Assembly (NCBI GenBank): GCA_903813345.2
Contig: CAIIXF020000012.1
Location: 28,654,684-28,718,683 of the forward strand
DNA length: 64,000 bases
Direction: 5' to 3'
DNA from: Owenia fusiformis
Taxonomy: Eukaryota; Annelida; Polychaeta; Sabellida; Oweniidae
Shown here in pieces: positions 94-61,200 of this stretch (positions are counted from its first letter, which is position 1; the number at the start of each line of letters is the position of its first letter). The position numbers and the translations under genes were made by a program. The notes under the pieces are model-generated. The model did no database searches, was not told the origin of the DNA, and saw only the letters and a program-made list of their open reading frames with translations.

Positions 94-3000
94 CTGTAGA
101 GAGACATATGGTTCTTGGAAGGCATATTTATATATCCAATCAGATTCAATATCCAACTCCATATCTTCAGCTGGTTGGACGGGCACACCACGTATCTGGA
201 ACCTCTCGGGTGTATCAGCCAATCGGATTTTGTTATCCGAATCAGTAAAATGTCCACGTTCTAACTCTGATGGTTCATAAATCTCAAAAATTGACTTTTT
301 TAGAGTTTTCTTTTTCTTCTTTCGTTCCTTTCGTTCTAAACCACCTTCTTCATCTTCGTACTGGAATAGAACAATTGAAAAGATATACAAAAGGATTAGT
401 TAATGTTATAAAAATATGTAAGAAATAAGTGAAATCATGGGTCATTCCCCCAAGGATACAGCAAATGAAAACACAGAATGAACTTTTACAAGTGACATTG
501 TTCTCCCTTAAGATCTTTTCTCAGCTCAATATAACAATTTTCATAAATTAGGAAATTTTGGTAAAAAACAACTTCAGAAAATTGCCTGTTGCTAATGAAA
601 CATTGCCTGTTGCTAATGAAACTGCCACATTTCTTACCTCTTCTTCTTCACTGTCATACTCATCACTTCCACCATATTCTTCCATCTCATCAAAGTCAAA
701 ATCAACTCCAAATATATCCTGGGCTTCTTGTAGAGCACTGTAAATTGAGAACAAAATCATTGTGATGGTTGTTATTTTGACCTAACTGTTTAATCCAGAA
801 AGAATTGTAGTTGGGTCAAAAAACCTATCCCTGAAAACACTGACCAATTTATGTCCACGCCAAAACAAAAAAAAACATGGATTAAAAATAATACCCTTGG
901 CTTCTTCAAGAGCACTGTAAATCAATAATTGCTGTGGTTGTTATTTTTTTGGGGGAGGGGGGCGATAGTTTAATCCAGGAATAAGAGCAGAACTGTAGTT
1001 CAGGGTCAACAAAATACTACTGAAAACACTGACCAATTTATGCCACGCCAAAACAAAAAAACATGGATTTGGCTTTTGTAGAGCACTGTAAATCAATAAT
1101 TGTTGAGGTTGTTTTTTGTTTTTGTTTTTTGGGGAGTGGGGGGTGATAGTTTAACCCAGGAATGAGAGCAGAACTGTAGTTCAGGGTCAACAACCTACTC
1201 CTGAAAACACTGACCAATTTATGCCCACACCAAAAAATGGATTAAAAAGTAATGTGACGGTATAAACTTTCTGAAAATTGATATTGCATAAAGTTGTTTC
1301 TATAACCAGATTTATGCCATAACATTTCTAATTGTGAAAGATGTCTGACTTTGGTACATGGCTTCCTTGGACAATTCTAACACAAGGCATTAACATGCAA
1401 AATGTCACTACCTGCTATTTGTTACAGACACCGAATGCCAAACAAACAGTGACCACCAAACGCTGAACACCAACTGCCGAACACCATCCACAAAAAGTTG
1501 GGAGACCATAATATGTCACCCCTTCCAGTGGTTATTTCTAACAAGACCAAGGTGACTTGAAATAATACCAGGCATTAATATGCCAAATGTCACCACCTGC
1601 CAATAGTTACAGATGCCGAACACCAACCATCAAACATAAAAATTGATCCTTGGTTGGAAATTCCAGATCGTTGCCATGGCATGTTGCATATGACAAATGT
1701 AATTCTAAAATAGCTGTATGAACTTACGCATCGCCGTGTATCTTGACTTTCTTCTTTTTCTGTTTGCTCATTGGTTGTCCTTCCTCGTCAACGATAAAGT
1801 CATCCACATCTGCAATATTCAAGAAATGTCAAATTGAAAAATAAATTCAGATAAGAATATGGCATTGCCATGGAGGGAACCATCTTTAATATTTAATAGA
1901 CTCAAAATATAACGACTTTTTTAGAAAAATATTACATTATGCTCAGTATACAAATTGTGAAATTTTATTGACTTCGACAATGGTTAAGAATTTGATTGAG
2001 AAGAGATAGAATTCGACTCATTTAGTTCAAATAAAAAATACTTTTCCGGGGGGAAGCAAAGAAGTTTGACAAGGTTTAGTGAATGTGATTGGCCAAAAAA
2101 TAATATCCCACGTACCAGATTCTTCTTCAGAGCCCTCTAAATCACCAAACTCCGTCCCAGTTTCTTGGGCAGGTGGTCTTCGTGGTTTTTCTTGTATAAG
2201 AGGTTCCTCTTCATCATCAGCACCATCAAAGATCTCATTGGCAATTGCATCACGGTCATCCTTATCTTCTTCTTTACCCGATTCGTCATCAGATGACATC
2301 ATTTTAATACGTTTGCGTTTTTGCTGCAAAATAATTCAATTGTCAATAGGGATTGAACATATCCCCAAAACTGGAGCCAGTGATCTCCCCAGCATTAAAG
2401 CAAGTGGGCGCAGTACCCACCTGAGATTTGAGAAACAGGCTTGCACCCACCTAAAAAATCCATTTGCAACAACTTGAAAATGAGAAAAATCATAAAAAAA
2501 TGGGCATATTTTTGACCAATTTCAGTGTGAATTGTGAAAATGAGTATTTTGCACCCTTGAGAAAAAATCCTGGAGAGATCACTAGGAGCCCCTGCCAGTC
2601 CTTGTCTCTGACAAGACCAAGGTGACTGGAAATAATACCAGGCATTAACATGCAAAATGTCACCTCAGATGCTGAACACCAACCACCAGACACCAACTGC
2701 TAAGTGCCATCACAAAGTTGGTGACCATAACAATATGTCACCATCAAAAATTGAACATGGAAACAGTTGCGAAAACTCTTCAAACCATCTGGCCATTTTG
2801 AAAAAAGTCTGAGAAAATCATATCCAGCTAAGGGGCGGGGTCAAAATATCGATGTTCATATGGAGACGAAAGTACTTTCGCGAGGGGGGAGGGGGTTTTT
2901 GGGCACTTTCGTTGACCAAAAAAACATCGATAATTCGGATCTGATATACAAAAAATAATTGGACTTACCCACTTTTTCTGGCGCTATGTTCTGATAAAAA

Positions 3001-58200: not shown

Positions 58201-61200
58201 CATCAGCCCAGCCTGATTCAAGGTCACAGGTGGGGTCAAATATACGGAGCGAAGCATGCGTTACAAGATCACCTGGAAATATAAATATATAAAAAAAGTT
58301 TAATTCAATTCAAATATCTTTTCAATTATATATACAAGGTTCACTTTACATTAAGGTTAGGGGTAACTGGACTTTTGAATTTGTTCCACTAAATGAGGTC
58401 ATCCACTTACAGAGGTTCATTTTACACTTAAAGGCCTCCTCACATATGAAAGAAAATCCTGCCATGAACTTGTGTGCTGGTGAATGGACTTGAGTAAAAT
58501 TCATTCCCATTAGTATGTGTATGTTGTACATCGTTTGTGGTGTTTGTATGCGAAAGTACACTTTCAGAAATCTTCGAACTGCTTCGAAAGCATGTGGGCT
58601 TCATTTCGCATGGCACATAGCCATCGTGTTTCACATACAGATTTCCATTTGAAAAGTGCTCTGGCAGCAAAGGGGTTAACATCTCCATAGTACAAAGTAG
58701 GCCTAAAGAGTATGCCACAACTTACCAAGTGTCTGAGATTGCATGTAAAAGGCTGATTCCTGAAGCTGCAAGAATGTCTTTGACAACCTAGGTGCAGCAA
58801 GGGCAGATTTCATCAGTGGAAGGATCTTTGTAAGTAGTTCCGGCAGGTACAACCGAAGCTCTAAGCTGTCTCCATTCACCACAGAAGCTAACATTGCACA
58901 TGTCTTACACAGGTCTTCATCAAGCTGAGGAGGGAAAATAAATGCATTAACTTTGAATTCGGGAAACCTTCTCTTGAGATGAAACCCCCAGGACACCTTG
59001 GCATCTTTCAATGAAATATTTACCTACTGATGATTTAAGTCTACAAACGTCTTCTTTACAATATATTTGTATGTGTGCCCCACCCATAAACTTGAAATCT
59101 GGTATACAAATTGTTGAAGCTTTAATGTTTGGATCTGAATTCCTAGTTCCTCTACTACTAGGTTGGTAATTATAGATGAATTTATCAAAATTGTCAAATG
59201 ATCATAAACAAGCTTTAATAAGAAATCAATAAGATAATAAGATATCAGATACCAAACTTTTGTTGGGGAGTGTACAACAGCTTCATATTACTAAACCTTT
59301 TAGGGAGTGTACCATACCTGCAGATTAACTTTCCTAATCTCAGACTCTTTCTTCAACTCAGCTGCCATGAGTTCTTGCTGCTTCTTGTTCAGCTTGGGTT
59401 CTGTCTTCTCACCACGCTTTCTCTTCTTCTCTTCTTCAATCTGAAATTAAAGGAACGAGAGTGAATCGTCAAAATGTTATAAATCGTTAATTAAAGGAAC
59501 GAGAGTGAATCGACAAAATGTTATAAATCGTTAATAAAAGGAACGAAAGTGAATCGTCAAAATGTTATAAATCGTTAATTAAAGGAACGAGGGTGAATCG
59601 TCAAAATGTTATAAATTGTTAATTAAAGGGACTCGAGTGAATCGACAAAATGTTATAAATCGTTAATTAAAGGAATGAGAGTGAATCGTCAAAATGTTAT
59701 AAATCGTTAATTAAAGGGACTCGAGTGATTCGTCAAAATGTTATAAATGAAGGCACTTGAGGGAATTGACAAAACGTTATAAATCAAAGGGAGTAGTATA
59801 GAAGGAATTTTCAATATGTCAAAAGTTTAATTCAGTATAAAATATAGTACATGTACATATTCATGATAACTTCACAGCCTTACAAAAATACCTTACAGTA
59901 TTTTTTGATAAAGGGTGACACAAAAAGTCAACTTGAAAAAAAAGTCAAAAAAGAGACTAGTTTTAGAACAACTCTCAAAAACGGTTGCATTTTTTGAGTC
60001 ACCCAGTATAACAAAAATCGATATTACCTTTCTAAGTTCCTTCTCAGCCATTTGTTCTTTGTACGAGTAAAGCTTGCTTTCTTTTCTGACATTGGCATTC
60101 CCACCTTCGTTTTTCCCTCTGTAAAATACGATGAATGTATTCCAAACAATTGTAGATCATATGTCATATCTTATTTTGAATAATTTCATGAATGTCTACA
60201 CAACCAATGATACATAAAACTATTTTCGGCTGTCAACATTCTTATCTAAAGAATAAATAAAATACAAAAATATAACAAGGCATTTAAACATGCAAAAGTC
60301 ACCAATTTGCCATTTATCACAGGCGCTGTCGTGGCTGCAATGCAAAACACCAACTGGTGTCCACAAATTTGTTGGAGACTATAACAATATGTGACCATTT
60401 GTGATGTTGACATAAAAAATAGACTTGAACAGTTCCAAACATAGTGACCTACCCTTCTATGACAGAAGTATTATACAGTTTTCCTTCTGGGTACATCATG
60501 ATGGCATATTCCTCCCGAGTAACGGTTGCTAGGCGACTGTTGCTTAGGCTTTCAGTTATTTGTTTAATGATTTCGGGAAGGACAAGTTTTGGTGCAACTC
60601 GACTCAGCGTTGTCAGGGCATTGCAGTAATCCTAAAAACACATGTACATTGTGTTATACTTTAGATAACAGAACAACCAAATTGCATTGTGTTTAGTGTA
60701 ACATTTAGTCAATAGGTCGTAACACTTCCCAATGAATTTTTTAATAATGTTTTGGTTTGAGACTACAGTGGGGAGTTTCAAGTTCATTTCCCTTTAAAGT
60801 AATGTAATGTAAACCTTGGTAAGTAAGTAACACGGTGCCCATGTCAAGCTGCGCGCCTACTTAGGCGCGCATATTGTTTCGATCACAAACTGCGTGCCTA
60901 AGAACATTGCATCATTTAAGTTGGAGTCTGTATTTTGAAACGTAATTTAAAGATATTTATCCTGCATTGTTTTCTTGTTCAATGCGTCCATTCTGTGGCG
61001 AATATACGAATCTTGCAAATACACTAGCAAAAACTATGTGAAATGAATCTAAGTTTTAAAATTAAGAAGATTAATTGCATTTTCGTCACTGATTTAACGG
61101 GAATGTATACGTAAATCGATCTAGCACTTTAAACATAAATTACAAATACTTTAGACTCATTTTATATTTAATTCCTTACACATTTATTATGTATAATTCA

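Follow-up and report, generated by a model that had tools for sequence, protein, structure and literature searches.

Tandem arrays that carry exon–intron borders in Owenia fusiformis genes, likely mirage-type minisatellites with an excess of large arrays at splice borders

Exon–intron borders are repeated in tandem within the adjoining introns of the annelid Owenia fusiformis, both in three genes (SUPT6H, RWDD4 and GCN1) of the 64,000-nt stretch of DNA analyzed here, which we call the window (assembly GCA_903813345.2, contig CAIIXF020000012.1, positions 28,654,684 to 28,718,683), and in a sample of 35 other loci. The repeated units hold the end of an exon together with its splice site, and in that sample formation or expansion of large arrays is favored about 2.5-fold at splice borders over random placement (95% interval of the observed/expected ratio 1.7–3.4). 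The arrays are likely minisatellites of the type described in lancelets as “mirages”, that is, tandem duplications across a border that expanded like minisatellites and are tolerated since the extra copies are spliced out.

Results

Splice borders are repeated in tandem in three genes of the window

Each border was tested by aligning the 60 nt centered on it to the 2.5 kb on each side, requiring a match that crosses the border by at least 6 nt per side; reversed queries for the 89 borders served as control and never gave a top score above 25. Eleven of the 89 borders in the window passed, with a unit that includes the border and exon sequence (Table 1), and a stricter test with ungapped 24-mers left only 7 of 87. 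An initial annotation of this DNA had listed twelve borders at which the junction itself or the bases touching it are repeated. The border is indeed repeated at nine of them, whereas at three (acceptors 4187 and 59440, listed as 4188 and 59441, and donor 46209) only the neighboring sequence is: their scores lie within the control range, and an array whose unit lacks the border begins at the border or at most about 25 nt from it. Among the 77 borders outside that list two pass, acceptor 36182 and donor 59317.

The strongest cases are the acceptor arrays of RWDD4 and, in GCN1, those at 37473 and 49196, which reach 31 to 85 nt into the exon. Upstream of the RWDD4 acceptor 10991/10992, which had been placed at 11012 (the exon begins GAAGAGGTAGAG), 45 additional copies of the border are found, 44 of them with an intact AG. 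For the GCN1 array at 37473, 19 additional border copies were scored and AG is intact in 18, while the distal copies of the array at 49196 are diverged and only 4 of about 17 could be scored. The SUPT6H array at 897–1235 likewise contains diverged additional copies of the acceptor and the first exon bases.

Table 1. Border arrays and other features of the window, with alignment scores from the border test
Feature	Span	Strand	Description	Score
SUPT6H 5′ part	94–4847	−	exons 4847–4567, 4187–3997, 2323–2116, 1809–1728, 737–638, 360–94	
SUPT6H acceptor 737	638–1235	−	exon 737–638; array 897–1235 (Tandem Repeats Finder), unit 181 bp	47
SUPT6H acceptor 4187	4187–4457	−	nearby 27-bp arrays 4210–4259 and 4309–4457; unit without border	20
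RWDD4 acceptor array	9050–11072	+	exon 10992–11072; unit 42 bp, 31 nt exonic	120
RWDD4 donor 11495	11386–11641	+	border repeated in 30/60-bp array 11515–11641	43
RWDD4 acceptor 12628/12629	12472–12727	+	diverged copy 12478–12512 within 42-bp repeat 12472–12552	36
18-bp × 230 array, NKDDNP-like	18983–24139	+	array 19990–24139; span includes open frame	
GCN1	34199–63496	−	34 modelled exons; homology for parts	
GCN1 acceptor 35335	35210–35457	−	one copy, 100 bp upstream	46
GCN1 acceptor 36182	35979–36323	−	diverged copy 36273–36323; absent from initial annotation	37
GCN1 acceptor array 37473	37262–39772	−	exon 37473–37262; unit 120 bp, 85 nt exonic, 20 copies	120
GCN1 acceptor 45004	44815–45195	−	diverged copy 45142–45195	61
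GCN1 donor 46209/46210	46096–46305	−	35-bp array starts at donor; border not repeated	22
GCN1 acceptor array 49196	49017–50899	−	exon 49196–49017; unit about 99 bp, 52 nt exonic, 17.5 copies	120
GCN1 acceptor 54979	54878–55067	−	copy 55030–55067	61
GCN1 donor 59317	59250–59440	−	exon 59440–59318; diverged copy 59250–59290; absent from initial annotation	31
GCN1 acceptor 59440	59445–59785	−	44-bp array, 4 nt away; unit without border	16

Large arrays cross splice borders more often than expected from random placement

The wider sample consists of 8.5-kb stretches picked by domain matches and not by repeats: 18 dynein-family loci, 10 myosin head loci (a partial set, with preference for loci with several matches) and 7 SNF2 loci (the seven best by E-value, added as a replicate once the test was written down). 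Exons were predicted with a gene finder trained on GCN1, and calls scoring below 0 or shorter than 40 nt were discarded. At L014, L030 and L015 the gene finder had mistaken copies of an array for exon, and these three models were corrected ahead of the final count. Arrays were excluded if the unit was shorter than 20 bp, if they lay outside the first-to-last exon, or if an exon contained them entirely (at L009 and L026 in the sample, and one in SUPT6H). After filtering, the sample comprised 646 borders and 323 introns. An array was counted as crossing if it extends 8 nt or more past the border in both directions, and expected numbers were derived from random seeds of equal unit length on genes whose arrays had been collapsed to one unit.

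Sixteen arrays cross a border in the 323 introns, 10 at donors and 6 at acceptors, so that the pattern extends, as had been surmised, beyond the three genes of the window. This corresponds to 16 of 57 arrays of all sizes versus 7.0 expected (P = 0.0004), and the excess is seen for arrays of at least 200 bp (13 of 19 versus 4.7; P = 3 × 10⁻⁵; 5.0 expected and P = 1 × 10⁻⁴ with a locus-specific null) as well as for those with at least four copies (12 of 24 versus 3.9). With only the largest array of each locus retained, 9 of 14 cross a border versus 3.8 expected (P = 0.0025). The size cut-offs had been set post hoc on the first 28 loci, which makes the SNF2 replicate the cleaner test; taken alone and before model correction, it gives 5 of 12 versus 1.65 for all arrays (P = 0.011) and 3 of 4 versus 0.75 for those with at least four copies (P = 0.019). 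Two further large arrays, at L017 and L018, contain a splice site but less than 8 nt of exon and are outside these counts.

Exon joins are supported by homology at eight sampled borders in four genes, where the spliced products were aligned: both donors of L015 (through to dynein 1), three borders of L023 (to myosins), the donor and acceptor of L030 (to CHD1, with a one-residue gap nearby) and the L008 acceptor (to axonemal dynein 2). Within the window, GCN1 border 49196 lies in an ungapped alignment to GCN1, and a GCN1 HEAT family match continues across border 37473.

Several results weigh against a bias towards borders. The primary test set in advance for the SNF2 replicate, on arrays of at least 200 bp, gave 3 of 4 versus 1.05 expected (P = 0.053). 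Arrays with fewer than four copies are not enriched at borders, with 4 of 33 crossing in the sample versus 3.1 expected and 0 of 12 in the window versus 1.8. For the window alone, 3 of 7 within-gene arrays of at least 200 bp cross a border versus 1.9 expected and an excess is not demonstrable; the proposal that such placement exceeds chance thus stands for the large arrays of the sample but not for the window by itself. Counted per base, only 7 of 87 borders in the window are repeated versus 26.6% of intron positions, and in the first 28 loci 23 of 554 borders (11 of 278 acceptors, 12 of 276 donors) versus 9.5% of intron, a table in which 8 of the repeated borders are false ones within the L014 array and one L015 donor still has its earlier position. 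Finally, the L035 border falls within a gap of the alignment to CHD4, and the borders other than those with homology support are gene-finder calls. Large arrays distort such per-base counts, as 45 copies bring in about 1,900 intron bases for a single border; if arrays of at least 200 bp are collapsed to one unit, they cover 13 of the 646 sampled borders (2.0%) versus 0.66% of intron bases, a 3.0-fold difference.

The low-copy arrays and the window agree with chance, under which, with short introns, random duplications with units of 40–260 bp often cross a border and purifying selection removes only those internal to exons; about 30% of the viable placements of a 100-bp seed span a border. Chance is nevertheless an improbable explanation of the whole, as the excess of large arrays holds with the locus-specific null and with one array per locus, and the SNF2 replicate points the same way.

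The repeated unit is mostly exonic and the decoy splice sites are largely intact

The initial annotation had placed array edges at the junctions themselves. Instead, the 19 border-crossing arrays end 19 to 119 nt inside the exon, and the exonic share of the unit is more than one half in 16 of them. Unit length is divisible by three in 8 of the 19 (6.3 expected); judged from the unit lengths, use of a neighboring copy would thus shift the reading frame in the other 11. A general preference for GC-rich sequence was considered and rejected; non-crossing arrays of at least 150 bp have about the GC content of introns.

AG or GT is kept in 157 of 163 scored border copies (20 of 21 examined arrays), a figure weakened by the fact that only copies alike to the true border at 26 or more of 40 positions were scored, so that diverged copies which lost the signal are missed. 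L017 has no scorable border copy, and the single copy at L010 lacks GT. Since the dinucleotides are kept in most scored copies, the younger copies contain decoys without erosion. Such decoys, if useful, for instance in the control of intron retention or for robustness, could be maintained by selection, and the splice dinucleotides do vary less than other columns of 15 arrays (2 of 300 versus 139 of 5,700). This difference is not significant (P = 0.08), however, and units that are not a multiple of three in 11 arrays speak against a useful role, which makes selection a very unlikely explanation.

Three introns carry arrays at both ends. In the L023 intron an 83-bp unit provides 7 near-identical donors at the start and a 91-bp unit 12 near-identical acceptors at the end, and both ends are also affected in introns of L035 and L030; 0.37 such introns are expected from within-locus shuffling (P = 0.002). 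Moreover, in window and sample together, 16 of 56 non-crossing arrays have an edge within 20 nt of a border versus 7.25 expected, and a few of these nearby arrays touch the splice site itself (L017, L018). Both observations are in line with splice borders as mutational hot spots where duplications start, either through R-loops or stalled forks, as offered in the initial annotation, or through microhomology at AG|GT. On the other hand, low-copy duplications, which are nearest to the starting event, show no excess, and the arrays end well inside the exon rather than at the border. We consider seeding at the junction unlikely, if less so than chance.

Two dynein paralogues, L010 and L016, have a duplicated border at matching donors (positions 4328 and 4138, respectively), which could reflect either a shared hot spot or coincidence. 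Outside the counted loci, the same stretch of the SNF2 profile is matched five times, 137–188 bp apart, at C2:4915297–4916006; to judge from these domain matches, this is probably another border or exon array. At C9:37986009–37994334, twelve matches to about positions 18–84 of the myosin head profile are spaced 0.3–2 kb apart, suggestive of a myosin gene with a large number of alternative exons.

Other features of the window

Tandem Repeats Finder reported 53 rows in the window, and exons there were modelled with a small gene finder that had GCN1 exons as training set. SUPT6H was identified by its match to human SPT6, with a query that carried an added tail, and GCN1 by matches to the GCN1 chain 7nrc_A and to Pfam GCN1 HEAT families. 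The forward-strand gene matches an RWD domain from its exon start, consistent with RWDD4; this name is the label of the initial annotation.

Within GCN1, one repeat family with a ATCAGGACAAG core makes up three arrays (44243–44466, 45916–45998 and 46096–46209) that occupy two introns about 1.4 kb apart, and a 369-codon open reading frame (51101–52210, + strand) lies in an intron on the opposite strand, without a Pfam match at E 0.001. An open frame at 18983–22381 (+ strand) begins like a rhodopsin-type receptor (Pfam 7tm_1, E = 1.5 × 10⁻⁷) and enters the 18-bp array, and two blocks within 29724–32055, 1,376 bp apart, encode open reading frames with identical translations (e.g., 29724–29972 and 31100–31348). 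These blocks are a recent direct duplication.

Discussion

How the arrays may have arisen

We infer the following history from the anatomy of the arrays. Tandem duplication would first affect a segment, some 20 to 260 bp long, that spans an exon–intron border, and the segment would then multiply as minisatellites do. The copy contiguous with the remaining exon would stay under selection at the protein level, while the other copies would sit in the intron and be spliced away. Exon definition probably singles out the true site, as no copy except the terminal one runs on into a full exon. As to why borders are favored, our guess is that DNA at the edge of exons expands more easily than that of introns, given that the unit is mostly exonic. 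A bias in the expansion of exon-edge DNA seems a little likelier than one in initiation, because low-copy duplications are without excess and the units are mostly exonic.

Two further origins would have to be weighed against border-crossing minisatellites. Assembly errors could falsely expand repeats, and one lancelet mirage was reportedly misassembled in a draft genome (PMC3087553). The copies described here differ among themselves, however, and the arrays are on several chromosomes, which makes an artefact highly improbable.

Alternatively, the introns themselves could have arisen by tandem duplication of exon pieces, as in Rogers-type intron gain. When introns are gained by tandem genomic duplication, the duplication reportedly carries splice signals. 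The arrays of Owenia resemble this in that the duplicated segment carries splice signals and the units hold exon ends. Arrays take up almost the whole of two sampled introns, at L003 (240 of 261 nt) and L018 (422 of 460 nt). However, the units of these two are almost or entirely devoid of exon sequence, the big GCN1 arrays leave part of their introns unoccupied (49145–50899 in 49197–52463; 37389–39772 in 37474–40310), the introns appear mostly part-filled, and no sign of a new intron was seen. An origin of this kind, which is proposed for lancelet globins (PMC3087553) and human duplicated genes (PMC2812944), is very unlikely here.

Relation to mirages and other border repeats

The host is not a cephalochordate: on contig C1, the homeodomains of two Hox genes are followed by UbdA-like tails (QAIKEINEQ and QQIKDLNES), and such tails are a mark of protostomes. 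Ordinary intronic minisatellites are similar in unit size and in the likeness of their copies, but the unit here holds exon sequence and a splice site.

Contrary to the statement that no such pattern had been described, comparable arrays are known from lancelets (PMC3087553, PMC3902484) and from human exon–intron boundaries (PMC2812944). Mirages in lancelet globins and Adh3 leave splicing undisturbed and are unstable in copy number (PMC3087553), and further lancelet genes with mirages are PGBD5 and troponin C (TnC) (PMC3902484). As in Owenia, the tandem unit of a mirage crosses the border, at donors and at acceptors, the exon is intact at one end of the array, AG or GT is kept in most scored copies, and units measure tens to about 160 bp. 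In contrast to lancelet mirages, the arrays described here occur in a protostome, reach up to 45 copies and are found at both ends of three introns, and a rate over several gene families and a border excess of large arrays can be given. Conversely, splicing and length instability were studied in lancelets, whereas the Owenia arrays are known from the DNA of one assembly.

Human genes in segmental duplications likewise carry variable minisatellite repeats at exon–intron boundaries, with novel introns and alternative splicing (PMC2812944). These repeats are of recent origin, differ from one paralogue to another and can give rise to novel introns, while the Owenia arrays lie in conserved genes and leave the exon intact. 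That human boundary repeats are reported to alter splicing in duplicated genes (PMC2812944) is a point against the view that border arrays are simply tolerated. Titles and opening lines of abstracts yielded no report from annelids and no border enrichment measured against a placement null, a weak negative as subscription papers were mostly outside the search. What is new here is thus the lineage, the rate, the enrichment and the three introns with arrays at both ends, whereas the kind of array has been described before.

Implications

More tentatively, splice borders could be hot spots of tandem amplification genome-wide, with amplification tied to exon edges or to splicing itself; we think this possible but somewhat doubtful. 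In that case several percent of introns would have a row of near-identical donors or acceptors at one end, and some would have one at each end. If the sampled rate held across the genome, thousands of introns would confront the spliceosome with rows of near-identical sites, a single one of them correct. Such rows would be a natural experiment on how exon definition selects a site, and the excess of large arrays at borders makes a puzzle that dates back to the lancelet studies testable, namely why minisatellites form on exon–intron borders.

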